From an uncultured Bacilli bacterium (GTDB taxonomy: Bacteria > Bacillota_I > Bacilli_A > RF39 > UBA660): 44,140 nt of DNA. Each line of letters begins with the position of its first letter. The stretch's first letter is position 1. This document shows positions 1 to 14,001 of the stretch, piece by piece. The DNA is taken from NCBI GenBank assembly GCA_944358455.1, contig CALVRE010000039.1, forward strand, positions 1 through 44,140. Direction: 5' to 3'. A program made the translations under genes and the position numbers. Under the pieces are notes generated by a model. It was not told where the DNA came from, searched no databases, and was given only the letters and a program-made list of their open reading frames with translations.

Positions 1-79
1 TATTATCCACAATAATAATGCCATTCGAAATTCCTTTTACGGGAACAAAATCATTTGTTGTATTCCATTGATATATCAT
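1..79 (-). CDS. VirB4/TraC-like ATPase, N-terminal fragment
   Basis: An open frame begins at the ATG at 77-79 and runs off the left edge after 26 codons; an in-frame TAG directly upstream fixes the earliest possible start. The visible residues read N-D-F-V-P-V-K-G-I-S-N-G-I-I-I-V-D-N. This resembles the conserved opening of VirB4/TraC-type secretion ATPases, where a D-F-(V/I)-P-(V/I)-K-x-I-x-x-G motif precedes a hydrophobic strand. It overlaps the end of the PrgI-like gene by 29 bases, which suggests translational coupling. PrgI-like followed by VirB4-like is the usual pair in Gram-positive conjugation-type systems. The ATPase motifs lie outside the window, so the call rests on a short match plus neighbourhood. 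Confidence 0.55.
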   Translation of the reverse strand, partial: MIYQWNTTNDFVPVKGISNGIIIVDN

Positions 80-377
80 CTAGAAAACACCAGCCTTTCC
101 ACATATAATTTTGATTTCTGCTAAAAAAGAAATACATAGATATAATTAAAGTTAATGTATTGTGGTAGTTGGGAATTGGAAATACCAGAAAAGCAGCTAT
201 TCCTCCAGGTAAAACTTCCAATACTAAACCAGCGAGATTATCTGTTTGAAATAAAACAATAGCCAAAAAGCTTATAAAAAGTCCAATTCCTAATATAATA
301 ATATCACGCATATTAAACAAACCAAGAATTAACAATGATTTTTTTGAATTCGCTGGTATTAAATAATAATTATTCAT
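51..377 (-). CDS. PrgI/VirB3-like small membrane protein of a type IV secretion system
   Basis: The 108-aa protein has two hydrophobic segments at about residues 23-45 and 55-85 and a short aromatic C-terminus. It has no catalytic motif. Size, topology and position just before a VirB4-like start fit the PrgI/VirB3 inner-membrane subunit, which docks the VirB4 ATPase to the membrane channel. The start is preceded by an AGGGTG ribosome site at suitable spacing. It lies 73 bases after the VirB6-like gene and is probably co-transcribed with it. The family call depends partly on neighbours because these proteins are poorly conserved. Confidence 0.55.
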   Translation of the reverse strand: MNNYYLIPANSKKSLLILGLFNMRDIIILGIGLFISFLAIVLFQTDNLAGLVLEVLPGGIAAFLVFPIPNYHNTLTLIISMYFFFSRNQNYMWKGWCFLDDISMEYNK

Positions 378-450
378 CCTATCACACCCTTTTATTTTTC
401 TTCTTTTTTAAGATATAATCGCCTAATCTAAGTCTTCCTTTCATAACTAA

Positions 451-2337
451 TTATCTATTATTGTTTCCAGAAGAATTAGTATTATTTGGTTGATTCAAGC
501 CCCCTGCTATATTCTTTCCGGTTTCGTTAACCCTTCTTTCCACCGAGTTAATTGAGTTAATCAATGCTTCTGCTTCTTCTTTTACGGTAGCAATGCTTGG
601 TGCATTTTCATCTTTCGAAATTTGCTTTTGTAAATATTTGTCAATTGTATTAAGTTGTTCTCCATTTTCATCTTGAAATCTTCGCATAATTTCATCAATT
701 TGATCCTGTGGTGAAGCATCTAAGTTGTAATTCATTTCAACTTGTTTAATTTGATTACTTAATTTACTAATATCTGAATCTAAATTATTACTAGCTAAGG
801 CAACTTTATTATAAGTATCAGCTAACTGCCTTACATGCTCTTGCAACTGTTGATTATTAGGATTTTCTTTGAGTTCTTTTTGTGCATTTAACAACGCATC
901 TTCTACACGTTTTAAATCTAAGTCAATACTAATTTTTTCTTGTTGAATAATTGCTCTCTTACTTTTTAGTTCTTTCACATCATTACTTGCACTTTCTCTA
1001 AAAAGCTGTTTAAAAGGATTATAAGCACGCATTTTATTTCCTGTTGCATCTTCATAACCAGCTGCTCTACCAAGCGAAAAACCTTTCACCGGTGCACCTT
1101 TAATATCGGCTCCCATCATTGGCACTTTACCATCAACACTACTAAAACCAGCTGCTGCTCCTGATAAAGCTGCTCTTAAACGATTCCCAGTTTTATTATT
1201 ACGTAAACTCTCATAAGCTCCTCCGACCGCAGCTGCTGCTCTTGTGGTTGCAGCTCCAACCACTGGCACTGTTTGTATTTTCTTACGAATACTGAAGGTA
1301 AATCCTCCTTTAGGTTTAATTCCTAAAATATCATATATCAATTGTGGCAATTCTTTTGCGAACGTTAAAATACCACAGATAATCATCCATTGAGCCGTCA
1401 GACCAAAACTACTGTCACTTATCATTGTGATGAGGCCTTCTCCCGCCGTAAGTTCAGCGATGAAAAATACAGCAAAGAAAACAGCTCCTAATCGAATAAA
1501 CAAATCTAGATAGGTAGAACCACAAGTTTTTAACCAATTATTAAATACTTGATTACCCTTTTTCTCATCTATATATGAAAGAATTGGAACTGGCGCTATC
1601 ATAGCTAAAAATGCCAATTTTATCGAACGTACTGCAACATCGAACGTAAAAACAATAAATATCTTAGCAACATAAAATCCAACTATAGAAGACACTAAAA
1701 TACTATAGTCATAAGTATACTTGTTATTGAGTGTCCATCCAGGATTTTCTTTTTCTCTTACTTTATCTTCAAAGTCATATACCGAAATATTTGTAGTGGC
1801 AGGATCCTTACAAAACACTTCATCAGAATGACTATCACAATAGCCACTTGAATAATCAACCGGGTAGAAAAAAGATTTAAAAATAGTAATAGAGACTACC
1901 CGACCAGCATTATCATATGTTATTTGATTTTCTTCTTGATCTGTTTCCACTCCAAGAATCAAATTTCCTAAAATATTTTGCTCTAATACAGTTTTTTGAA
2001 AATCAAGTGCAAAATCAAAAATGGTAGGTACCAAAACTACTAATCCTAACGAAATAAAGATTCTAGTAACAATCTTCCCACCACCACTATTTTTATCGTT
2101 TGCTGTATCCGGATTAACAAACATTGTAAGAAGTGAAAATGCAACTTTAAACAACATAAAAATACCAATGAAAATATAAACACGCTGAATAAATTCATCA
2201 ACAGTACTTTGTCTGATAATGGTAATTCCTGCTACATCTTTTAATAAATTGTATGCAGCTTCAATCAGAACATAAATTATACTATCGATGAAGAAAAACA
2301 CTTCTCGAAATATATCTAAATACCATTCTGCAGTCAC
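451..2337 (-). CDS. VirB6/TrbL-like polytopic membrane protein with cytoplasmic coiled-coil tail
   Basis: The 628-aa protein begins with GTG behind a clear GAGGTGAG ribosome site. Hydrophobic segments lie near residues 13-30, 52-74, 90-112, 212-232, 238-256, 276-296 and 312-330. An extracytoplasmic stretch at about 113-210 holds a Cys pair (C167, C176). The segment around 212-296 (transmembrane, R-x-I-K, a proline break, then N-N-W-L) resembles VirB6/TrbL channel proteins of conjugative type IV secretion systems. Residues from about 345 to the end are hydrophilic: Ala/Gly-rich, then a heptad-like Glu/Lys/Leu region (about 440-540) and an Asn-rich end. It would form the membrane pore beneath the VirB4 ATPase. 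No relaxase or transfer gene is visible, so DNA transfer cannot be assumed. Confidence 0.6.
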   Translation of the reverse strand: MTAEWYLDIFREVFFFIDSIIYVLIEAAYNLLKDVAGITIIRQSTVDEFIQRVYIFIGIFMLFKVAFSLLTMFVNPDTANDKNSGGGKIVTRIFISLGLVVLVPTIFDFALDFQKTVLEQNILGNLILGVETDQEENQITYDNAGRVVSITIFKSFFYPVDYSSGYCDSHSDEVFCKDPATTNISVYDFEDKVREKENPGWTLNNKYTYDYSILVSSIVGFYVAKIFIVFTFDVAVRSIKLAFLAMIAPVPILSYIDEKKGNQVFNNWLKTCGSTYLDLFIRLGAVFFAVFFIAELTAGEGLITMISDSSFGLTAQWMIICGILTFAKELPQLIYDILGIKPKGGFTFSIRKKIQTVPVVGAATTRAAAAVGGAYESLRNNKTGNRLRAALSGAAAGFSSVDGKVPMMGADIKGAPVKGFSLGRAAGYEDATGNKMRAYNPFKQLFRESASNDVKELKSKRAIIQQEKISIDLDLKRVEDALLNAQKELKENPNNQQLQEHVRQLADTYNKVALASNNLDSDISKLSNQIKQVEMNYNLDASPQDQIDEIMRRFQDENGEQLNTIDKYLQKQISKDENAPSIATVKEEAEALINSINSVERRVNETGKNIAGGLNQPNNTNSSGNNNR

Positions 2338-2363
2338 GTTCTCACCTCTTTTTTATTGTTTTG

Positions 2364-3485
2364 TTATTCTATTATGCAAGACTCAATACCAAATAACCCA
2401 AGTACCAAATCAATTAATTGTGGTAACATAAATATAATAAAAATTATTATAATTCGAATTACTAATCTTTTAAAAGCTTTCTTTTGACCATCATTTTCAG
2501 CAGTTATAACGACTTTGGTGAAGTCAATCATAGTAAATATAGCTAATGTTCCCACCATAATATAGCAAATCAAATTAAATACTGTTTGAACTGTTGGTAA
2601 CATTTGTTCTAACAGACTACAATCCACATCTCCATAACCTTCTCCAGAGCTAATATCTGTGTAACATCCGTTATACTTTCTTTTACAAGTCTCTAACTCT
2701 GATAAATAGTCATTTTGACAAATACTGTCAGTTGTATCTCCCGTCTCTAAACATTCTTCATAATTAGTCTTAGCTTCTTCCTGACACATTTTGCAATACG
2801 AATCATTTGTATCAACCGATTCATATCTCTCTTCACACTCTTGACGACAACTATAAGATCCAATTGCATCTGAACAATTTTGAATGCATTCTTCAAAACT
2901 TCCGGCATCATCTTTATGCTCTACGAAAGCTTCACATTGGACGCATTGTTCATCATAGTTAGGATCAGATGCCGAAAGACTAAAATCATATCCTTCACAT
3001 CTTTGACATTTTTCCACTAAAGATTCATAATCATCTGATGGGCAATAAGTTTGAGCGACCAACCTATAAGACTCATATCGTCCAGTATCACACGATGCAG
3101 AACCCTCGTAATAAGTAGGAAAATGCCACTCTACATGTAAAGATGCGTTACAACTTTCATTATTCGAATCATTCTTCCCAGATCCAACTGCATAACAGCG
3201 AGCGTCAGGGTATGTTGCATTTTGGCCGTATTGAACACAGGAACTATACATATTGTTTATTTGATTCAATTCTTCTTTAATAACTCCAGAATAATCGCGA
3301 TTTGGATCACCAAGTTTACTAATATTCCCAAAATCAAAATTACATAATTCTTCCGCCGAATTAATTCTTGTATTATTTATTGCTACTTCCCACGTAAATG
3401 GGGTTTCTAATGCATTTACTTTTGTAATCGAAAGGAAGATTACAAAAAAACTGCAAAACAAATATTTCCATATTTTATTTTTCAT
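2364..3485 (-). CDS. Cysteine-rich secreted ectodomain fused to a VirB2-like pilin domain
   Basis: The start is placed at the ATG at 3483-3485, giving 373 aa, because a promoter -10 lies over the longer alternative ATG at 3518. The N-terminus is a signal peptide (Lys-rich, hydrophobic, ending near V-N-A). The ectodomain of about 280 residues contains some 21 Cys by eye, many as C-x-x-C or C-x-x-x-C (K-C-Q-R-C, Q-C-V-Q-C, Y-C-K-M-C, E-C-I-Q-N-C). The last 75 residues form two transmembrane helices around a basic loop with F-T-M-I-D-F-T-K-V-V, matching F-G-M-L-D-L-G-K-A-V in the VirB2-like protein at 3778-4122. It may be a decorated or tip pilin subunit. Function is inferred. Confidence 0.5.
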   Translation of the reverse strand: MKNKIWKYLFCSFFVIFLSITKVNALETPFTWEVAINNTRINSAEELCNFDFGNISKLGDPNRDYSGVIKEELNQINNMYSSCVQYGQNATYPDARCYAVGSGKNDSNNESCNASLHVEWHFPTYYEGSASCDTGRYESYRLVAQTYCPSDDYESLVEKCQRCEGYDFSLSASDPNYDEQCVQCEAFVEHKDDAGSFEECIQNCSDAIGSYSCRQECEERYESVDTNDSYCKMCQEEAKTNYEECLETGDTTDSICQNDYLSELETCKRKYNGCYTDISSGEGYGDVDCSLLEQMLPTVQTVFNLICYIMVGTLAIFTMIDFTKVVITAENDGQKKAFKRLVIRIIIIFIIFMLPQLIDLVLGLFGIESCIIE

Positions 3486-3516
3486 TTTATTACTCTCTTT
3501 AAAGACACACACATAC

Positions 3517-3525
3517 ATTATAACA
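3517..3525 (-). promoter_or_regulatory. Extended -10 promoter of the type IV secretion half-operon
   Basis: On the minus strand the sequence TGTTATAAT is a perfect extended -10 element (TATAAT at 3517-3522). No good -35 is seen 17 bases upstream, as is common for extended -10 promoters. Transcription would begin near 3510, giving a leader of about 25 bases to the ATG at 3485. Confidence 0.55.
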
Positions 3526-3687
3526 TAAAAAAAAACAAGAATAAAGTTTTATTATTTGAGTTTTGTTATTTTATAAAAAAAAATTAAAAACCTAATAAAT
3601 TTTATAACTATTATATTAATTTAATCATATTAAATCAACACTAAAAAATTAAAATTGTGATTTTTATCAATATTATCGACAAATATC

Positions 3688-3712
3688 AAAAAGAACAGAT
3701 TTTTATCTGTTC
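3688..3712 (-). terminator. Intrinsic terminator of the Tad/pilin operon
   Basis: Arms GAACAGAT (3693-3700) and ATCTGTTC (3705-3712) pair perfectly around a four-base loop. On the minus strand the stem is followed by five T (3688-3692). It lies 66 bases beyond the VirB2-like pilin stop. The remaining non-coding DNA from 3486 to 3777 is extremely AT-rich and shows only this terminator and the promoter at 3517-3525. Confidence 0.8.
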
Positions 3713-3777
3713 CTCAAGTATTAATGTTATTGACTTTTACATCTGTCAAAATTGTTTAACAATCAAAAAAATATAAA

Positions 3778-4122
3778 TTAGCAACTTCCATTATTTTGAA
3801 TGAAACAATCTAAACATTCAGTCATTGAATTATTGTCCTCACCTGTAGCATTTGCTAAAACGTTAACTATTAAAGTTACAATTGAAACAACGAAGAATAC
3901 AAGAGCAGCTGCAATAGCACGTTTCATAAACGTTTGTTGTCCTTTTTTGATTTCATCTTCTTTTTGAGCTGTTACTGCTTTTCCTAAGTCTAACATACCA
4001 AAAATGATAAGAAGGACAGGTACTACAAATTGAATAACTTTAACAATAATAGAAGTAACCGCTGGAAGCGCTTCTGGAATACTATCGATTCCGATTGCTC
4101 CTGCACAAGATAATATAAACAT
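3778..4122 (-). CDS. VirB2-like pilin subunit
   Basis: The 114-aa protein has a short N-terminus, a first transmembrane helix at about 24-43, a charged loop (44-68, with D-L-G-K-A-V and K-K-G-Q-Q-T-F-M-K-R) and a second helix at 69-90. It ends with an outer tail carrying C103, C106 and C114. Two helices around a basic cytoplasmic loop are the hallmark of VirB2/TrbC-type pilins of type IV secretion systems. It has a strong ribosome site (AAAGGGAGG) and its own near-consensus promoter, and is followed by a terminator, so it can be made in excess of its neighbours. The Cys-containing tail suggests disulfide-stabilised subunits. Whether it assembles a pilus is inferred. Confidence 0.6.
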   Translation of the reverse strand: MFILSCAGAIGIDSIPEALPAVTSIIVKVIQFVVPVLLIIFGMLDLGKAVTAQKEDEIKKGQQTFMKRAIAAALVFFVVSIVTLIVNVLANATGEDNNSMTECLDCFIQNNGSC

Positions 4123-4147
4123 AATTTAACCTCCCTTTAATACTATC

Positions 4148-4176
4148 ATCATACTTTATTTTTCAATATTTGTCAA
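4148..4176 (-). promoter_or_regulatory. Internal promoter of the VirB2-like pilin gene
   Basis: On the minus strand TTGACA (4171-4176, perfect -35) is separated by exactly 17 bases from TATGAT (4148-4153, 5/6 match to the -10). Transcription would start near 4141, about 20 bases before the pilin ATG. It sits in the 58-base gap after the TadZ-like gene. Confidence 0.8.
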
Positions 4177-4180
4177 TCTT

Positions 4181-5170
4181 TTACAAATTAAATAAACCTA
4201 AAAGCTTATTTTTCTTGGTATTTTCACCATTTGATTGACGTTCAAATCCCAATTTTAGTAAGAATGGATCCATCCCTTGAATATCTTTAGCACGTTCATC
4301 CAATGGTGGCATATTGTAAAACACCTTAATACGTGATTCATACTCGAAGTCCAATACATCTTTCGATGATAGAACACTTTGATTTAAAACGACTTTTTTA
4401 TCCTTATAAGAAGCTAAAGCTCTTGGATTGGATAACATTAATTTATTTAATTTTATCATCGATGGTTCCAACAAATAAATGACTTCGTGACAAATTGCTT
4501 GGGCGGCATTACTGTTATTCATATCGACTAAAATAATATCGCGATCGCTATACTTAGCAATTGTATTACCTAGCTGATCATTTGATGTGCTTTCCATGTC
4601 TTTGTCGCCAAAATACATGAAATCACGCTTGTCTACTTCGATAGCTGCAACTGTATAATTTTTTTGTAATTGCTTCTTCATCATATAAGTGAAAGTTGTC
4701 GCTCCAGCTCCAGCATTAATATTTTTAATTCCAATAATACGATTACCACTAGATGGCCCAAATTTTTCAACAACAACTTCTTTCACATCATCTAACTGAT
4801 GGTATTGTGCGACATCACGATAAGTATTGGGATTATTGTATAAATACATAATACCCTCAATGTTTTTCGTGAAATTATAAATTCCCATCGAAATTAATTT
4901 CGAAAGATAACTGGTCGATGAGCTTTCTTCTGAATCATCCAAAAGTAGAATCACTTTATCCATATCAAGTGAAATCGATAATTTTTGGAGAGTTTTGATA
5001 TCCTTATAGTTTTTTAAAGCAGTAATATCGAGAATCATACGTTGAAAATAGAAATTCTGAAAAGTTGAAATAATTTCATCAACACTAAATTCTCCATCCA
5101 TACGTTTAATAATATCGATGTTTAAATTTTGTAACATCGCACTATAACGATTCGCTATAATGACATTCAT
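4181..5170 (-). CDS. TadZ/CpaE-like pilus localisation protein (ParA/MinD fold, degenerate Walker A)
   Basis: The 329-aa protein has an N-terminal receiver-like domain (about 1-125) and a ParA/MinD-type ATPase domain (about 140-300). The two-domain arrangement is that of TadZ/CpaE, which positions Tad secretion machines in the cell. The phosphate loop reads N-I-N-A-G-A-G-A-T-T-F-T and lacks both the signature and the catalytic Lys of a ParA Walker A, so nucleotide hydrolysis is doubtful; degenerate loops are known in TadZ proteins. An I-I-L-V-D-M-N strand fits the Walker B position. It begins with ATG 15 bases after the preceding gene and has an AGAGGTG ribosome site. Confidence 0.7.
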   Translation of the reverse strand: MNVIIANRYSAMLQNLNIDIIKRMDGEFSVDEIISTFQNFYFQRMILDITALKNYKDIKTLQKLSISLDMDKVILLLDDSEESSSTSYLSKLISMGIYNFTKNIEGIMYLYNNPNTYRDVAQYHQLDDVKEVVVEKFGPSSGNRIIGIKNINAGAGATTFTYMMKKQLQKNYTVAAIEVDKRDFMYFGDKDMESTSNDQLGNTIAKYSDRDIILVDMNNSNAAQAICHEVIYLLEPSMIKLNKLMLSNPRALASYKDKKVVLNQSVLSSKDVLDFEYESRIKVFYNMPPLDERAKDIQGMDPFLLKLGFERQSNGENTKKNKLLGLFNL

Positions 5171-5185
5171 ATATCATATTCACCT

Positions 5186-5644
5186 CTAATCTTCAGTTGG
5201 AATTCCATTATCGACAACATGGTAGAATACCTTTGTTTGACCAGCAACTTGGAACTGTAAAACATTCGATAATAATGGAATATCTAAATACATATAAGTC
5301 ACAACACGATAATAATTACCCCTTGTGCTACTATATTCATAAATACAATAACGATAATTATAAGGATTATTCAAGGCACTTCTGCCATCAATAACAGGAC
5401 ATTGTTGATTATTCGTATTGACACGATAACCTGCTTCACGTAAGTATTCTTCTATTTCAGTATCGATACGATCGCGGTTATCTGCAATGTATCCATCCTC
5501 ATAATTTTCGATAATATCGACAATATGCGTTTTAATCTTAAAAGCTTTTGAATAATTAAGAGAGCTTAGAAAAACCGCAATCACTAAACTAATCAATACG
5601 ATCGCAATTGTAAAAATGGCACTATTGCCAATAGCTTCTTTCAT
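5186..5644 (-). CDS. TadE/TadF-like pseudopilin, paralogue of the next gene
   Basis: The 152-aa protein starts M-K-E-A-I-G, followed at once by a transmembrane helix (about 9-30) and an extracytoplasmic domain with two Cys (in Q-Q-C-P and Y-R-Y-C). This is the layout of TadE/TadF minor pseudopilins of Tad systems. It aligns along its whole length with the protein at 5689-6117: both have Y-S-K-A-F, G-Y-R-V-N-T, a C-P/C-x-Y pair and T-Y-(M/I)-Y-L-D-(I/L)-P. They are an old tandem duplication. No consensus prepilin cleavage site is visible. The ribosome site is AGAGGTG. Confidence 0.6.
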   Translation of the reverse strand: MKEAIGNSAIFTIAIVLISLVIAVFLSSLNYSKAFKIKTHIVDIIENYEDGYIADNRDRIDTEIEEYLREAGYRVNTNNQQCPVIDGRSALNNPYNYRYCIYEYSSTRGNYYRVVTYMYLDIPLLSNVLQFQVAGQTKVFYHVVDNGIPTED

Positions 5645-5688: not shown

Positions 5689-6117
5689 TCATCCATTAAA
5701 TTGATAAATTCTTGCTGTTCTAGTATAAACGGGAACTTTCAATAATCGGCCAATAACCGGTAAATCTAAATAAATATAAGTTAGAACTCCGTAATTATAA
5801 TGACGGCTATCAATTTGATAATAATAAACACAATATTCATAACTATCTGTAACTTTGGTAACCGCTTCAGCACCTTCTCTTTCTGGGCAACTGAACCCTC
5901 CTGTATTAACTCGATAACCAAGAGTTTGTAACACATTGTTGATTTCAGTGTCCGATAATTCGTTATACCCCTCATATTTTTCCAGTGCATTTATAATCCT
6001 ACTATTGACACGGAAAGCCTTGGAGTAACTCATGGTTCCGGCTAGGAAGGCAAATATAACAACAATGAAAACAATAACAATATTATATAAGAATACACTT
6101 CCTATCCCTTCACGCAT
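5689..6117 (-). CDS. TadE/TadF-like pseudopilin
   Basis: The 142-aa protein starts M-R-E-G-I-G, then has a transmembrane helix (about 8-28) and an outer domain with two Cys (F-S-C-P and Y-E-Y-C). It is paralogous to the following gene, sharing Y-S-K-A-F, Y-E-G-Y, G-Y-R-V-N-T and T-Y-I-Y-L-D-L-P. In Tad systems such proteins are minor pseudopilins that prime or cap the pilus. A strong TAGGAGG ribosome site precedes the ATG, and the gene lies 32 bases after the Flp-like pilin. Confidence 0.6.
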   Translation of the reverse strand: MREGIGSVFLYNIVIVFIVVIFAFLAGTMSYSKAFRVNSRIINALEKYEGYNELSDTEINNVLQTLGYRVNTGGFSCPEREGAEAVTKVTDSYEYCVYYYQIDSRHYNYGVLTYIYLDLPVIGRLLKVPVYTRTARIYQFNG

Positions 6118-6149: not shown

Positions 6150-6347
6150 CTATTCTGTATCTGAACATTCGTCACTTGCGCCAACGCATCCACCATTCTC
6201 CCAAGTACCACCATTTTGAAGACAACAAGAACGTTTTTGCGTTGTATTCATGGCATTATTGATAAGTGGAGTCGCTACAGCAGCGATTACACCAATTAGA
6301 ATAATGGCAATAACTGTTAAGTTTGCTTCTCCAGCAGCTTCTTTCAT
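6150..6347 (-). CDS. Small Flp-like pilin with cysteine-rich C-terminus
   Basis: The 65-aa protein starts M-K-E-A-A-G-E, runs directly into a hydrophobic helix (about 10-28) and ends in a short polar tail with four Cys (C41, C42, C54, C61), including C-C-L-Q-N-G-G and N-G-G-C. Size and position between TadC and the TadE/F pair make it the best candidate for the major pilin. It lacks the usual long prepilin leader and the G-x-x-x-x-E cleavage signature. A strong promoter and an AAAGGTGG ribosome site precede it, consistent with high-level expression. Confidence 0.6.
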   Translation of the reverse strand: MKEAAGEANLTVIAIILIGVIAAVATPLINNAMNTTQKRSCCLQNGGTWENGGCVGASDECSDTE

Positions 6348-6416: not shown

Positions 6417-7199
6417 TTAGAGATTCATCATCATCATCATTGACATCAACATGAAAAGCATGATACCACCTCCGGTAACAAATAACATTACCATCGTTTT
6501 TTGTTCCATTTTTTCTAGACGTTCCTTATATTTTTGTTCACGTGATTTATTTTGTAATGTCGAAACGGTTCTAGAAAACATCATGAGTTGTTCTTGTTTA
6601 TTTTCTTGCGATCCCAATCCTAAGCGATAGAGTAAACGCATCATACGCATGGAATCACGAACTGGATATTCCGTTGCGAAATCCATATAAGGCTGTACGG
6701 ATGAATCTCCAGCCTCGATCTTTTCAACCAATCGTTGCAATCCCGCTTTAAAGATATCAGGTGCTGTATCAATCGAGCGACGCAATGCAACTGGAACGGT
6801 ATAATGTTGAATCAAAATCTCCAAACTTTTTAAATAGTATGGAAGCATCAAATTGATATGATGCAAATTAGCTTTATAATATCGATTCAACTGTGTATAT
6901 TGTAATTTGAATACTAAAAATCCGACAATCAACGAAAATAGAATCGTAATAAAGCTTAAATCGGATAAGAAGAAGAAAAATAAGGCAACAATGGCAGCAA
7001 GTGCATTTTGAATACGTCTACCAAACATTTTCTTAACATCCACTTGCGATCCATATTTTACTTCTAATAAAAACTTGTAATCATCTTCCATTAAGAAACG
7101 GAAATAAGGTTCTGTTTCTTCGATAAATTTATGAGAGTCCGCTGCTCCTGAATAAAAACATATAAAGATAACAATAATCGTAATTACTATAAACATCAT
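6417..7199 (-). CDS. tadC: TadC-like membrane platform protein
   Basis: The protein is 260 aa from the ATG at 7197-7199, one base after the TadB stop. A longer GTG start at 7211 is possible but abuts its ribosome site. It has transmembrane segments near the N-terminus, a hydrophobic pair in the first third (about 65-100), a cytoplasmic helical domain and a very hydrophobic Met-rich C-terminal helix. This is the single-repeat GspF/TadC form. With TadB it would form the membrane platform on which the CpaF ATPase works. The call combines topology, size and order tadA-tadB-tadC. Confidence 0.7.
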   Translation of the reverse strand: MMFIVITIIVIFICFYSGAADSHKFIEETEPYFRFLMEDDYKFLLEVKYGSQVDVKKMFGRRIQNALAAIVALFFFFLSDLSFITILFSLIVGFLVFKLQYTQLNRYYKANLHHINLMLPYYLKSLEILIQHYTVPVALRRSIDTAPDIFKAGLQRLVEKIEAGDSSVQPYMDFATEYPVRDSMRMMRLLYRLGLGSQENKQEQLMMFSRTVSTLQNKSREQKYKERLEKMEQKTMVMLFVTGGGIMLFMLMSMMMMMNL

Positions 7200-7200
7200 A

Positions 7201-8103
7201 TTATTCAGCACCTACATTCTCATTATAATATTTTTCCCCACTGAGCAAGAAGAATGTGTTGATGATGACAATTCCATGCAATAGTAATTGAACTAGTGGA
7301 TTATCTAACATTTGAATATAAGAATCAACACCTAGCAAGAACTGTACCAACATTACCATCAAATAGAGAACAATTCCGAACTGAAGAAACTTCTTATGGT
7401 ATGTAGCACGATCAATACGGTCACGATAAACATTTTCTACGAGCATATCGATATCAAGTGACATGTTTTCTAAGGATCCGGCGGAATCTTTTGCACCTTC
7501 ATTGGTAATTTGCAAAAATAATTGATGCATATTGCGGACGATATAATAATCATATTTATTATTCATATACTCAAGTGATTGATCGATCGTACCATTTTGA
7601 TATGCCATATCGATCATCATCTTTACATCGCTCTTGACAGGGTCTTCTAAAACTCCAGATTCATAAACTCCTTCTACAGCCTTTACAAATGATTGGGTCG
7701 TAGCAAATTCCATAATAACATTTGTCGTATATACTTGAATCTGTTCAAATATAAATTCACTGTAAATACGTTTACATCTTAAATATGTCAAGTATGGAAT
7801 CAGTGTTAAAGAAGCAAGCGAGTAAATAACGGATATAATCAAGTTATAAAAATATAAGTAAGATATTATGAAGGAAGCGACTGCAAATACGGTAACTTGA
7901 ATCGCATATTGTCTAGGTGTATATTCTTGACCTAATTCTTTTACTTTCTCTCTTACCGTTTTAAATGAATAAGGGGCGTACTTTTCATACAAAGTACCTG
8001 CCTGATTGGCAACATATTTGTAGACATTTTGTCCACTATTTTGGCGATAGATTACAACAAATATAATGATAAATGCGATTGAGCCAAAAATCAAAAATTC
8101 CAT
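7201..8103 (-). CDS. tadB: TadB-like membrane platform protein
   Basis: The 300-aa protein has an N-terminal helix (1-18), a hydrophobic pair at about 90-128, a cytoplasmic GspF-type helical domain (about 130-225, with A-K-D-S-A-G-S-L-E-N-M) and two C-terminal helices (about 240-290). The G-S-L-x-N motif is typical of T2SSF/TadB domains. It sits directly after the CpaF-like ATPase gene (14-base gap) behind an AAGGAGGGG ribosome site, as in Tad operons. Confidence 0.75.
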   Translation of the reverse strand: MEFLIFGSIAFIIIFVVIYRQNSGQNVYKYVANQAGTLYEKYAPYSFKTVREKVKELGQEYTPRQYAIQVTVFAVASFIISYLYFYNLIISVIYSLASLTLIPYLTYLRCKRIYSEFIFEQIQVYTTNVIMEFATTQSFVKAVEGVYESGVLEDPVKSDVKMMIDMAYQNGTIDQSLEYMNNKYDYYIVRNMHQLFLQITNEGAKDSAGSLENMSLDIDMLVENVYRDRIDRATYHKKFLQFGIVLYLMVMLVQFLLGVDSYIQMLDNPLVQLLLHGIVIINTFFLLSGEKYYNENVGAE

Positions 8104-8117
8104 ATTACCCCTCCTTT

Positions 8118-9494
8118 TTAATTAATATCTTCAAAATTTAAAGTTTCGACCTGAGTAGCCTGTCTCATGGGTTGTGGTGAAACAGATGGTTGCACTGATG
8201 GTCTGGGTGTTGCAACCGATTGTGCAGGAATTGGATTCCTTGACATCTGTCCTTGAACAGGAACTGAATTCACCGTCGTTTGTGTTGGTGTTGGAGTTGC
8301 CGAAACCACTCTTTTTTCTGGAACCGGATTTGATTGAGCAACCAGTCTTGATGTAGCAACAGTCTGTTTCATAGGCTCGGCTACAACATTTGGCTTATTC
8401 GCTACCTCAGATTCAGATTCTGTTTCATTTTCTGAAGATGGTCGATTCAATATTTCTTTTGGAAGTTCTACGCCTTGTCCTGCTAAATAATCAATTAAAT
8501 ATTTAGAAGGAGCATGATAAAATTCTTTTCCAAAAGTATCTTTTTTATAGATAACATTATATTTAGCGTCGTTATCTTCTGTTACATAGAACTCTGTAAC
8601 TTCTGCAATTTCACGTACGAATTTCTTTGTTACCTTATCTTGATATCCACGAACGTACACACCAAGTTGAACATATCGATAGATTGATTTTAAGAACTGA
8701 TCAATATCTTGATTCGTCTCTAACAAACTATACATACGATTTGGAATACTTGCTGCTTTATCGGCGTGAATAGTCGATAGAATATAGTGTCCAGATGAAA
8801 TCGCGTTACGCATTGACATAACAGCTTCGGCACTACGAACTTCGGATAATAAAATCCATTTAGGGTTTTGACGCATACAAGCAACTAAAATATCACTGTA
8901 ACTAGCAATATTGTTGGTTTTCATGGCGACAATATCACGATGTGGAAAAATACGGTCTAAGTGTAGTTCCAAAGTGTCTTCTACCGTGATGATTTTTTCA
9001 TTTTCCTTAATCTTAGAGCCTAAATACTTAATAAACTCCGTTTTCCCAGAACCGGTCTCTCCACATACGATAATATTACAATGTCCTTCGACACACTTAA
9101 TCAAGAAATCATGCACTTCCAAAGTAATGTACTTTTCTGCGATAATTTTATCTTTCTCTAAGCGAATCTTAGCTGGCGTTTTACGAATAACGACAGCAAT
9201 TCCATTACGAGCGATCGAATCATGAAGAAAGTTCAAACGCAACTCGGCACTTTCAGCATCGAGCATTGGATATGCCATATTAAATGTCTTTCCCATGACG
9301 TTCGCACATTGAAACGCTAACTTTTCCATAAAAGCATTGTTGATAGCTGGATTTTCGATACGATAAATTCCCTTGGATAACGTTTTCAAATGAATTTGAC
9401 CATTATTACTATAGGAAATATCAGTAATGTCATCATCTTCCAAATAAGGTTTTAATGGACCAAAATCAATTTGCGAGAACATATTATCATTCAT
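8118..9494 (-). CDS. cpaF: CpaF/TadA-type secretion ATPase with long disordered tail
   Basis: The 458-aa protein is a type II/IV secretion ATPase. Walker A is G-E-T-G-S-G-K-T at 145-152, followed by the acidic box E-D-T-L-E-L (172-177), the Walker B strand I-L-L-S-E-V-R (214-220) and the His box S-T-I-H-A-D (240-245). These motifs match CpaF/TadA, which powers Tad pilus assembly. Residues from about 351 to 458 are unusual: an acidic Ser/Glu stretch, then a Pro/Val/Gln/Thr/Ser-rich tail ending in E-T-L-N-F-E-D-I-N, absent from typical CpaF. The ribosome site AAGGAG overlaps the end of the preceding gene (2-base gap). Confidence 0.88.
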   Translation of the reverse strand: MNDNMFSQIDFGPLKPYLEDDDITDISYSNNGQIHLKTLSKGIYRIENPAINNAFMEKLAFQCANVMGKTFNMAYPMLDAESAELRLNFLHDSIARNGIAVVIRKTPAKIRLEKDKIIAEKYITLEVHDFLIKCVEGHCNIIVCGETGSGKTEFIKYLGSKIKENEKIITVEDTLELHLDRIFPHRDIVAMKTNNIASYSDILVACMRQNPKWILLSEVRSAEAVMSMRNAISSGHYILSTIHADKAASIPNRMYSLLETNQDIDQFLKSIYRYVQLGVYVRGYQDKVTKKFVREIAEVTEFYVTEDNDAKYNVIYKKDTFGKEFYHAPSKYLIDYLAGQGVELPKEILNRPSSENETESESEVANKPNVVAEPMKQTVATSRLVAQSNPVPEKRVVSATPTPTQTTVNSVPVQGQMSRNPIPAQSVATPRPSVQPSVSPQPMRQATQVETLNFEDIN

Positions 9495-9496
9495 AA

Positions 9497-10318
9497 TTAT
9501 TCTCCTTCTGAAACATTATTTTCGTTATTATTATTACTATTATCTTCAATCGGGATATTTACAGTCTTAGAGTTGATGAATTCTTGTAAATATTGTGTAC
9601 TTACTTGTGTACTTCCGCTCGTATCAACAGCTCCACCATGTGGCACTGGGAATATTTCAACAGAATAATCATTCATATATTGAGCTTTACGTAAAAGAAT
9701 ATGAATTTCTTCGCTTACCCCAAAGATTAAATAAGCAGGCGTACGAGTTTCTGAAGTATTTTCGAATACATCTTTTCCGCTACTATCTTTTACGGCAAGA
9801 ACTTCAATATTTTCAATCAATTTTCCTACCATAATTTGACCAGAGTCGTCTTCTGCTTTCATATAAAGATCGATCTTATTACCAGGGAAAATAGAATTTC
9901 CATAAGTAGATTCCATCGTTACTCTAAAGTTGTATGGAACCTCTCCTTCCTTCACTTGTGTAAATGAAGAATCTGGCAAATCATCAGCATCAATTAATAC
10001 ATCTTGATAAAACATACTTCCTTCTGGAATGACAGTATTTACATTCGAATATTTTCCTACAATCGATGCTTGATTACGAATGACATTCGAACTAACACCA
10101 ACAGCAGGAACAGAAATATAAGTAATCATATCACTTGTAATCAACTGTCTTGGTTGAATTGTTTGCTTTGCAACAGGAACTCTGACAGGAGATACTTGAC
10201 TATTGATTTGAGCATTGTAACCAAAATAGATAATAGCCATGATAAGAATTACCCCTAATATGGTAACAACATTCTTATTCTTGAAAAATCTTTTTACTGT
10301 AACAATAATATTATTCAT
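9497..10318 (-). CDS. cpaB: CpaB/RcpC-like SAF-domain protein
   Basis: The 273-aa protein has one N-terminal transmembrane helix (about 17-34) and a SAF-type domain (about 45-110, with V-P-V-A-K, R-Q-L-I-T-S-D-M-I and V-I-P-E-G-S-M-F) followed by the RcpC/CpaB region with N-K-I-D-L-Y. The last 25 residues are Asn/Glu-rich. CpaB proteins are extracytoplasmic Tad components; in organisms without an outer membrane they probably contact the cell wall or pilus base. It is tightly packed between the pseudopilin gene and cpaF. Confidence 0.78.
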   Translation of the reverse strand: MNNIIVTVKRFFKNKNVVTILGVILIMAIIYFGYNAQINSQVSPVRVPVAKQTIQPRQLITSDMITYISVPAVGVSSNVIRNQASIVGKYSNVNTVIPEGSMFYQDVLIDADDLPDSSFTQVKEGEVPYNFRVTMESTYGNSIFPGNKIDLYMKAEDDSGQIMVGKLIENIEVLAVKDSSGKDVFENTSETRTPAYLIFGVSEEIHILLRKAQYMNDYSVEIFPVPHGGAVDTSGSTQVSTQYLQEFINSKTVNIPIEDNSNNNNENNVSEGE

Positions 10319-10334: not shown

Positions 10335-10736
10335 TTAATATGGCGTTTCTAAAATAGCATCTAGTCTGTTTTCAATATCAAATTCCATAATTTCGTTTGT
10401 AACATTGCTCTGTTCCGTACTAGACACTTTTAGACTTACTTTAGGTGGCTCTTCGTTAACATCATAAATTTCGATAACGTATGTTCGAGATAAATTAGCA
10501 TTTTCTGCAAAACGACGAACGAAGTTTTCCACAAATTTTTCTCGATCGATGCGAACCGTTCCATCTTTACGATAAGAAGCTAAATCAAAGGCATCAATCA
10601 TGGCTGCTTCTGTTGTTTCTTTAAGCAAATTGTAATTATGTTCATCGGTATTGGTCAAACTTTGAAAGAAATAGATGAATGCAATTGCAACAACACCCAA
10701 TACGACGATGAGCACGCCCCAATAAGACTCCTTCAT
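10335..10736 (-). CDS. Small anchored pseudopilin-like protein of the Tad operon
   Basis: The 133-aa protein starts M-K-E-S, runs at once into a transmembrane helix (about 6-26) and has an outer domain of about 105 residues without Cys. The M-K-E opening followed by a helix is shared with the three pilin-like proteins at 5186, 5689 and 6150, so it is probably another substrate or minor pilin. I do not recognise the outer domain. The ribosome site AGGAAGTGAG is well placed; the gene lies 13 bases after the large adhesin gene. Confidence 0.5.
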   Translation of the reverse strand: MKESYWGVLIVVLGVVAIAFIYFFQSLTNTDEHNYNLLKETTEAAMIDAFDLASYRKDGTVRIDREKFVENFVRRFAENANLSRTYVIEIYDVNEEPPKVSLKVSSTEQSNVTNEIMEFDIENRLDAILETPY

Positions 10737-10749
10737 AAATTCTCACTTC

Positions 10750-13302
10750 CTATCCTTTATCTGCACACGACATAAAGTCGACTCTGCTTGCATTTGCACA
10801 AGTTCCTCCAAAATAAGTACTAAAATTGAAACTTGTACTTTCTGCCGTTACCGTTCCATGTATAAATTCACTCATACATCTAGTACCGGTTCCAGCATCA
10901 CAAACTAAATTAAAGTCTCCATAATCATCTACTAAACGATTATATCTTCTAATCTCTTTTATATTTGTAGGTGTAAGAGTAATCGTATAAAGTGGTTCTA
11001 AGTCATAAACCTCATCACCACTAACACCACGGTTATTGGTAATATAAGTATCCACTACACCTTCACCTGCCCAGTTAGCACCTGGTTCTCTTCCGTCCCC
11101 ATCGGTACTAGGGAATGCAACTTCCTCAGAACCTAACTTAATCGTACGATAAATAATATCGATTCCATTTGCTCTCAAACAATCTGTTCCCGTACAATTC
11201 TCACTTCCGCCTTCATCACAATAAGCAGGTTTATCTTCCCTTTCACATTCTCTTCCCTCAATATCATTCAAAATATTAATTGGACAACTATACTCTTTTG
11301 TTCCTGACGTATTTGTAAACTGATCAAAATGGGCAGTGCCGCTATTATTAATATGACCAATTCTAGAAAAATTTAAGCTAATATTATATCTTCCTGGGAT
11401 CATTGAAACACTAATTGGTATTACACTACCACCCAAGTCAATATAAGCACCACTTCCAGCTAGATCACTAGGCAACGTTGGTGTCACACTACCATCCACT
11501 TTCGATACATAACGATATAAACCATCCGGTAAAGTATAAGTAGCCGTTTTTTCCGTAATCGTTACCTTACTATCTACATCTACTTCATTAAACGTAATAC
11601 TTCCTGACTTTACACGGCTACAAGCAACATAGTTTCCACTACATTCATAATAATAAACTGTACTGGTTGATCCAGGTCGATCACTTGTTGCTACGCCACT
11701 CGTGTCATCTGGCTCACTACTTTTTAGTTCTCCCGTATAGCTATAATTAGGATCTGCAGTGTAACTAAAATTTATCTGTGGATTTAACTTGTAAGGTGTA
11801 TTCATGTTGGAACAATCGCGCATAGCCTGTTCCATTGCAATTCTTTGACTATCTAAACTCTTATAGGTATTTTCATAACTTGCGTTATAACCAGCCACAC
11901 TACCACAACCTTGATCAGTAAAAGTCCCTCCATTGTATCGATAAGTATTAACAATTAATGTTTCGGTATATTTGTAAACATTATCAAAGCATTGATTGCC
12001 TTCTGCCCAACCACGGTCACAAACCCAACATGCTACAGAATTACCCCATTCATCTTGACATGTTCCAAGTCGAGCAGCACCGACATATTCTCTCTCATAA
12101 ACATCACAGCCATTCCCTTTCTCGTTATTGGTGGTTGGAGTCACAACATTGTTGACTCGGGCATTTTCTTTTTGCCAAGCATCATATGCAGCTGGCATTT
12201 GATCAACAATGGCATTATAATCACTCAACCACTGCTCATAATTAATACCCCAATTAGTCGTTCCAGCCTCTTTGGTAGCACGACACTCACGAATTCCCGT
12301 AAAACTTACTGGTTCCCAAGTATTTCCCAATCCCGAGCTTCCTACGGTGAAATACTGTCCTGCTTGATAAACATTTCCAGATCCCGGAAAAATAGATGTC
12401 ACTGTCTCTCTACAATAAACTGGGCAATATTTTTTTGCCAAAGTAGATTGTCCTTCTAGAGCATACTTATCATTTTGAACGATACATTCCCAGCTTTCCG
12501 GATCAGAATAACGTGAAGAGACTTCACATACTCCAGCTATAATGGCATCTGGTTCAGGGCATTCATTAGCAGGAATATCAGAACATTGTTCTAGATATTC
12601 TTCATAGGTCACTTCTTTTCCGTCCTTACCATAATATTTACCATTCGCCTCATCAACACGACACATATTTGAATTTGAACAAGTATCACCGCCTGGATAT
12701 GCTGATACTAAATGTTGAGATCCTTCAGCAGTCCATTCGTAATAGGTTTTAGATGGTGTGGTAGCATTAATTTGACTAATAATATTGCTAATCCAATCAG
12801 TAGCATTGTCAAAATTTGTAGTATTTCGAATCATTTCACTTAAATCTGAATAGAGTGATTTTACACTATCACTAAGAACACTATTCCAATACCAATCGGC
12901 TATACTTGTTGCAGACATTCCCCATACATGCCCTTGTGCGATAGCATATTCAGCAGGACTGCTATGCCCATTTTCAATCCATGCTAACGCCTTAGCGACA
13001 GTAGAACTTGCTGATATAGCATTTCCTCTTTCGTAAACAAGATTACTATTTAACAATGTGTTAGGGTCATCACATAATGCATATGTACCACCAATCGTAA
13101 GTCCTCCAGTATAAAAGGTATGGCCATTGTAACCAATGGTATATGCACGGTTTCCACTAGTATTGACTAATCCACACTTTGTTCCTGTTTCTGCTGCCTT
13201 TACATTTAATAACGGTACGATAGTAATCGTCAAAAAAAGTGTTAAAGCAACTAGATATACCCCTTTTTCTTTCTTCCCTTTTTCTATCCATTTTGTCTTC
13301 AT
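10750..13302 (-). CDS. Large secreted cysteine-rich protein with putative thioester adhesin domain
   Basis: The 850-aa protein has a signal peptide (about 1-37) and no C-terminal anchor or sorting signal. Residues about 45-140 look like a Gram-positive thioester domain: T-Y-A-L-C-D-D-P with C77, then A-L-A-W-I-E-N-G-H, then A-I-A-Q-G-H-V-W with Q123. In known thioester domains such a Cys and Gln form an internal bond that attaches covalently to host surfaces. The rest is rich in Cys (29 in total by eye, an odd number that leaves C77 free of a disulfide), with C-x-x-C-type clusters and beta-rich stretches. Its place in the Tad operon suggests a pilus-associated or machine-exported adhesin. Confidence 0.65.
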   Translation of the reverse strand: MKTKWIEKGKKEKGVYLVALTLFLTITIVPLLNVKAAETGTKCGLVNTSGNRAYTIGYNGHTFYTGGLTIGGTYALCDDPNTLLNSNLVYERGNAISASSTVAKALAWIENGHSSPAEYAIAQGHVWGMSATSIADWYWNSVLSDSVKSLYSDLSEMIRNTTNFDNATDWISNIISQINATTPSKTYYEWTAEGSQHLVSAYPGGDTCSNSNMCRVDEANGKYYGKDGKEVTYEEYLEQCSDIPANECPEPDAIIAGVCEVSSRYSDPESWECIVQNDKYALEGQSTLAKKYCPVYCRETVTSIFPGSGNVYQAGQYFTVGSSGLGNTWEPVSFTGIRECRATKEAGTTNWGINYEQWLSDYNAIVDQMPAAYDAWQKENARVNNVVTPTTNNEKGNGCDVYEREYVGAARLGTCQDEWGNSVACWVCDRGWAEGNQCFDNVYKYTETLIVNTYRYNGGTFTDQGCGSVAGYNASYENTYKSLDSQRIAMEQAMRDCSNMNTPYKLNPQINFSYTADPNYSYTGELKSSEPDDTSGVATSDRPGSTSTVYYYECSGNYVACSRVKSGSITFNEVDVDSKVTITEKTATYTLPDGLYRYVSKVDGSVTPTLPSDLAGSGAYIDLGGSVIPISVSMIPGRYNISLNFSRIGHINNSGTAHFDQFTNTSGTKEYSCPINILNDIEGRECEREDKPAYCDEGGSENCTGTDCLRANGIDIIYRTIKLGSEEVAFPSTDGDGREPGANWAGEGVVDTYITNNRGVSGDEVYDLEPLYTITLTPTNIKEIRRYNRLVDDYGDFNLVCDAGTGTRCMSEFIHGTVTAESTSFNFSTYFGGTCANASRVDFMSCADKG

Positions 13303-13313
13303 ACTTCACCGCC

Positions 13314-13979
13314 TTAAAAACCAAATGTATCTTTCTTGCGATTGTAGTAGATAATATATCCACCGCCAAGAATGATCAATGGTAAAATAATGTAATAATA
13401 GTTGAGATAGAACTCTAATATATAAGGAATATCAGAACCGTCATCCTCTGTATTATCATCGACCGGTTCTTGATTTAAACTTTCTTTATAACGTGTCACT
13501 TGATTGATAAATGCTTCTCTTGTTAGCCCGTGATTAGACCATCTTTGACATAAACTATAATCTGGAATATCACTGCATACACTCTCTTGATAATAAGGAT
13601 TGTAAGTTGGCAAATTAACATATATTACAAATAATACTTCTTCAGTACAATCCGTAACACCAGTATAGACTTCGAATTGATAGGTTTGTCCATCTTGAAA
13701 ACCAGTTAATGTGAGTTCACTCATGTCTTTACTAGTATCTGGATAATAAAGAGTATTATTCGTAACATCCCTAATGATTAAATCTTTATAAAAATTAGCA
13801 AACGTAATGGTAAATACAGCATGTTCTCCTACTATCTCATAATCATAGCTTGTCGTAATATTTGCAGCAAGTGACTTCAATCTAGATGCTGTTTCATATG
13901 GACAATAATAAAGAGCATGAATATTAACTGGTACGACAGTTAAAATGAAAAGCAACAGTATTTTTATTATTCTTTTCAT
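13314..13979 (-). CDS. Small surface protein, C-terminally membrane-anchored, first gene of the Tad operon
   Basis: The start is placed at the ATG at 13977-13979 (221 aa), nine bases from a GGAGG ribosome site; an ATG nine bases earlier directly abuts that site. A signal peptide is followed by an outer domain of about 160 residues with four Cys and a beta-sandwich-like stretch (F-T-I-T-F-A-N-F-Y and Y-Q-F-E-V-Y-T-G). It ends in a Glu/Asp-rich linker, a transmembrane helix and a short basic tail (N-R-K-K). It may be a wall- or membrane-linked partner of the following adhesin. I do not recognise a named family. Confidence 0.55.
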   Translation of the reverse strand: MKRIIKILLLFILTVVPVNIHALYYCPYETASRLKSLAANITTSYDYEIVGEHAVFTITFANFYKDLIIRDVTNNTLYYPDTSKDMSELTLTGFQDGQTYQFEVYTGVTDCTEEVLFVIYVNLPTYNPYYQESVCSDIPDYSLCQRWSNHGLTREAFINQVTRYKESLNQEPVDDNTEDDGSDIPYILEFYLNYYYIILPLIILGGGYIIYYNRKKDTFGF

Positions 13980-14001
13980 CTCTACCATCCTCCATTATAA
14001 T

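Follow-up and report, generated by a model that had tools for sequence, protein, structure and literature searches.

The gene at positions 10,750-13,302 of the window (the whole 44,140-nucleotide stretch of DNA analysed here, assigned to an uncultured Bacilli bacterium) lies on the minus strand, as do all the features described below, and codes for a Cys-rich secreted protein of 850 amino acids with an ATG start and an N-terminal thioester-type head. This protein is probably a divergent, compact thioester domain (TED) adhesin, with a thioester between C77 and Q196 and a Cys-rich stalk, that works together with a Tad pilus system. At the sequence level the reading is built on the homology of the head to TEDs, the conservation of a Cys/Gln pair, the odd parity of the cysteines and the linkage of the gene to its neighbors, and from these we infer the adhesin function. 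TEDs are known mainly from sortase-anchored proteins of Gram-positive bacteria. If the reading is right, a TED that is encoded at a Tad locus, sits on a Cys-rich stalk and escapes the current family models would widen the range of covalent adhesion.

A Sec signal peptide is predicted at residues 1-36 (13,195-13,302), with cleavage between LLNVKA and AETG, called from a hydrophobic core and the AXA heuristic and not by a trained predictor. The thioester-type head comes next (residues 37-205; 12,688-13,194), delimited by head alignments and profile searches, and then a Cys-rich middle region without any family match (residues 206-567; 11,602-12,687), probably a disulfide-stabilised stalk. The remainder is a conserved C-terminal region (residues 569-850; 10,753-11,598), which relatives share whether or not they have a thioester-type head. 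The preliminary description had counted 29 Cys by eye and the number is exact (positions 43, 77, 208 and on to 846), all of them located past the predicted cleavage after residue 36. It had also reported that sorting signal and anchor are absent, in agreement with the C-terminus (...DFMSCADKG), where neither an LPxTG motif nor a transmembrane tail was found; two sortase-family matches are present in the genome of the window. Searches of the full protein against Pfam and NCBIfam gave no match, and neither did a PDB sequence search with the single protein. The isopeptide or ester domains that follow the head in TIE proteins were not found here, the Cys-rich region being in their place.

The homology of the head to proven TEDs is supported by a profile match to SaTIE-TED and by the retrieval of PF08341-matching proteins from the genomes of relatives. 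A profile of ten heads, in which the relatives are 14-20% identical to the head of the window, had SaTIE-TED as its sole significant match in the PDB (E 7e-5), spanning the Cys and QxxPhiW regions, and the next matches were unrelated Cas1 chains (E 0.19). An earlier profile of five heads had given one match among 177,635 PDB sequences, also SaTIE-TED (E 0.006). Run on 386 genomes of the family, the five-head profile retrieved in addition surface proteins poor in Cys, some of which end in sortase-type tails, and 7 of the 7 that were scanned match the Pfam TED family PF08341 above its cut-off. The Pfam model itself (gathering cut-off 22 bits) matched neither the protein nor any of the five heads, and searches with it of the window's own genome and of control genomes were equally without match. 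Judged from its sequence the head is very probably a thioester-type domain, though PF08341 is blind to these heads. The same had been proposed in the preliminary description, and the proposal is now backed by the PDB profile match, the retrieval of Pfam-TED proteins and the conservation of the Cys and the Gln. Predicted models of the head (alignment of 3 rows, pLDDT 43) and of the C-terminal region (10 rows, pLDDT 39) were both of low confidence, and VIA-align of the head model gave matches to unrelated proteins at noise level (best Z 4.0).

C77 (codon 13,072-13,074), the proposed thioester Cys, and Q196 (codon 12,715-12,717), the proposed thioester-forming Gln, are the only two residues invariant in the alignment of ten heads, as expected from the published rule that the bond-forming Cys and Gln of TEDs are universally conserved (PMC6194298). 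C77 (LCDD) fits the Cys motif [YFL]C-Phi-zeta except for the D after the Cys, and Q196 (SQHLV) fits the motif PhiQzetaPhiPhi, with YQRFI, YQNFV and KQNII in other heads. Between them the helical TQxxPhiW motif is found as AQ123GHVW127, with A replacing T. The spacing from Cys to Gln is 119 residues in the head of the window; in seven other heads it ranges from 99 to 133, and two more have 177. The residue numbers in the literature correspond to 129 for CpTIE, 152 for SfbI and 195 for BaTIE (PMC6194298, PMC4450167). The three motifs (Cys, QxxPhiW and the later Gln) also occur together in the heads of a subset of relatives, including members of the window's genus. As a pattern defined post hoc they turned up in 9 of 20,000 shuffled versions of the N-terminal region, and their conservation in relatives is stronger evidence than this shuffle test. 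Like PF08341 and the class I and II TEDs (SfbI, Cpa, BaTIE, SaTIE), the protein has a signal peptide followed by an N-terminal head with these three motifs and a profile match to SaTIE-TED. Unlike them, it goes undetected by PF08341, has D after the Cys and a spacing of 119, carries a Cys-rich region instead of an isopeptide or ester stalk and is without sorting signal.

The preliminary description had located C77 in TYALCDDP, Q123 in YAIAQGHVWGMS and the stretch ALAWIENGH between them, all of which are found at those places, and had taken C77 and Q123 as the bond pair, which is very probably wrong. Q123 (codon 12,934-12,936) is conserved in most heads, the one point in its favor, and it is the Gln of the helical motif (AQGHVW), which was dispensable for the bond in a tested TED (PMC4450167), the bond-forming Gln sitting in the later PhiQzetaPhiPhi motif (PMC4450167, PMC6194298). 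As Q123 belongs to the helical motif, and is probably not the bond-forming Gln, the sequence makes Q196, which is invariant with C77 across the ten heads, the likely better candidate. A C77-Q123 bond was consequently rejected, and we leave it hardly any probability. Since the Gln of the helical motif is dispensable, the distance between C77 and Q123 in a predicted structure, which had been offered as a means of refuting the thioester, tests the wrong pair.

Many genomes of the family conserve the C-terminal third of the protein: a search with the single sequence detected it in 58 of 193 and a profile in 227 of 386. The named matches to it come from uncultured Bacilli/Tenericutes genomes obtained from metagenomes. 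The N-terminal heads differ among these relatives on the common C-terminus. On the tree of the C-terminal region the TED label changes 5 times, at least 3 of them on well-supported branches, indicating that members have exchanged, acquired or lost heads while keeping a common base.

A fold of TED type could exist without a working thioester, with C77 either paired to another Cys, for example C43, or free, and with binding that is non-covalent. The head does have a second Cys, C43, the residue after C77 is D where the published motif wants a hydrophobic one, and the rest of the protein probably contains many disulfides. Against it, Q196 is invariant together with C77, and the equivalent of C43 is absent in several relatives. 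Furthermore, in two of them (L045 and L051) the head contains no Cys other than that of the motif, so that a disulfide within the head is impossible there. The parity of the cysteines points in the same direction. Among the 94 members for which a signal peptide was predicted the mature protein has an odd number of Cys in 11 of 12 TED-headed members versus 20 of 82 others (Fisher p 1.1e-5), a count that relies on heuristic signal-peptide cuts and on relatives that are not independent; classes were assigned by profile, blind to parity, and the pattern had been noticed by eye before the run. On the tree the association comes down to 3 independent contrasts, none of them contrary (p 0.25), and one relative of the same genus (L031) has an even number. 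The argument of the preliminary description that 29 Cys leave one unpaired is thus weak for one protein, and it gains from the association across the family. Taken together we consider a head without thioester unlikely. Six members with odd counts (L150, L151, L153, L157, L159 and L164) have heads that look TED-like by eye (e.g. YCLHPG, YCVDPG) and were missed by the profile; if the odd-count members of the group classed as lacking the head are truly TED-headed, the parity pattern would be stronger.

The location of the gene inside a Tad operon, as previously described, is supported. It is followed after 13 bp by a DUF5411 protein (10,335-10,736; PF17424, E 1.4e-55 in Pfam), a CpaB/RcpC-like protein (9,497-10,318; profile match to TIGR03177, E 1e-10, below its cut-off) and a TadA/VirB11-type secretion ATPase (8,118-9,494; profile match to T2SSE, E 2e-28). 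The other components were recognized by gene order, topology or eye and had no profile match: two TadB/TadC-like membrane proteins (7,201-8,103 and 6,417-7,211), a Flp-like pilin (6,150-6,347) and two TadE-like pseudopilins (5,689-6,117 and 5,186-5,644). In all 11 TED-headed relatives examined DUF5411 comes directly after the gene (gaps of -28 to 150 bp) and is itself followed by CpaB; among all members DUF5411 is next after the gene in 70 of 101. DUF5411 is hence a common neighbor of adhesin and CpaB, possibly a Tad component itself. Directly upstream, with a gap of 11 bp, there is a gene for a 224-aa protein (13,314-13,988) with a signal peptide and a C-terminal transmembrane segment (topology by eye), a candidate for a membrane partner or anchor of the adhesin. 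In 58 of 91 members a homologue of it lies no more than 400 bp upstream. The locus resembles the known Tad/Flp pilus loci in its CpaB and TadA-type ATPase and, by gene order, in its TadB/TadC, Flp and TadE-like genes. It differs from them in the presence of a large Cys-rich exported protein with a variable head and of DUF5411, and in its continuation into type IV secretion system (T4SS) genes in most relatives checked.

The close linkage of the gene to DUF5411 and CpaB, together with heads that change while the C-terminal region stays conserved, would also suit a part of the Tad or T4SS machine, for instance a cap at the pilus tip or an assembly factor, in which the thioester crosslinks to another machine component. 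We find this improbable: variable N-terminal heads on a constant base would be more typical of proteins that bind a target, and the characterised TEDs cited here act on a host protein or help in mating (PMC4450167, PMC8092201). A covalent adhesin acting with the Tad, and perhaps the T4SS, machinery is favored by the precedent of TIEpLS20, the product of gene 34 of the Bacillus subtilis plasmid pLS20, a sortase-independent TED adhesin that works in conjugation and shows that a transfer apparatus can make use of such an adhesin even when it has no sorting signal (PMC8092201). A mutant of its thioester Cys (C68S) was constructed and its conjugation assayed (PMC8092201). It is also the exception to the statement in the preliminary description that known members are sortase-anchored, which is true for most of them (PMC8092201). 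Like TIEpLS20, the protein of the window is very probably a TED protein encoded with a transfer apparatus and devoid of the sorting signal usual at the C-terminus of TIE proteins. TIEpLS20, however, is plasmid-borne and has a class II TED followed by CnaB domains, whereas the gene described here is chromosomal and linked to Tad genes and its product has a Cys-rich region. In a search of openly licensed papers we found none naming both a thioester domain and Tad pili.

If the protein is such an adhesin, an internal thioester would form between C77 and Q196 within the head (residues about 37-205), with Q123 and W127 placed in a supporting helix, and a surface amine or other nucleophile of the target would attack it, leaving the head covalently attached. 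The head would be borne on the long Cys-rich stalk, in which disulfides probably take the role that isopeptide domains usually have, and the stalk would carry the C-terminal region common across the family. The protein would probably act together with the Tad-type pilus system, as an adhesin at a tip or at the surface by which the cell or its secretion apparatus would hold on to a putative target. The points that we count against this adhesin are the missing PF08341 match, the D after C77, the low confidence of the head model (pLDDT 43), the 3 parity contrasts and the even count of L031.

Downstream of the Tad genes, on the same strand, positions 51-5,170 hold T4SS-like genes, and the contig ends there. 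The Tad genes run on in the same strand into T4SS-type genes in 5 of 7 relatives checked, and in the other two the T4SS genes are not adjacent. VirB4-like genes come after the Tad genes in five relatives (L174, L177, L178, L179 and L180), and in L180, which was scanned, there is also a VirD4-type gene (PF02534, E 1e-53). Of the 16 family genomes searched, 15 have the VirB4 of the locus at 76-86% identity, a conservation that suggests a Tad-T4SS composite as a core machine of the family rather than a recently acquired conjugative element, to which we gave less weight for this reason. The relaxase family PF03432 had matches over the cut-off in 2 of 12 genomes, which makes a link to conjugation tentative. 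More speculatively, and with rather less confidence than the adhesin itself, this could be a core chromosomal Tad and type IV secretion apparatus with interchangeable exported heads, some of them thioester harpoons that would fix the machine covalently to a target cell or surface ahead of transfer or attachment. The stretch at 51-5,170 includes a TadZ/AAA-like protein, a VirB2-like pilin (PF18895, E 0.006, below cut-off), a Cys-rich pilin-like protein of 384 aa, a TrbL/VirB6-like protein (NF045889, E 2e-5, below cut-off) and, by eye, a PrgI/VirB3-like protein.
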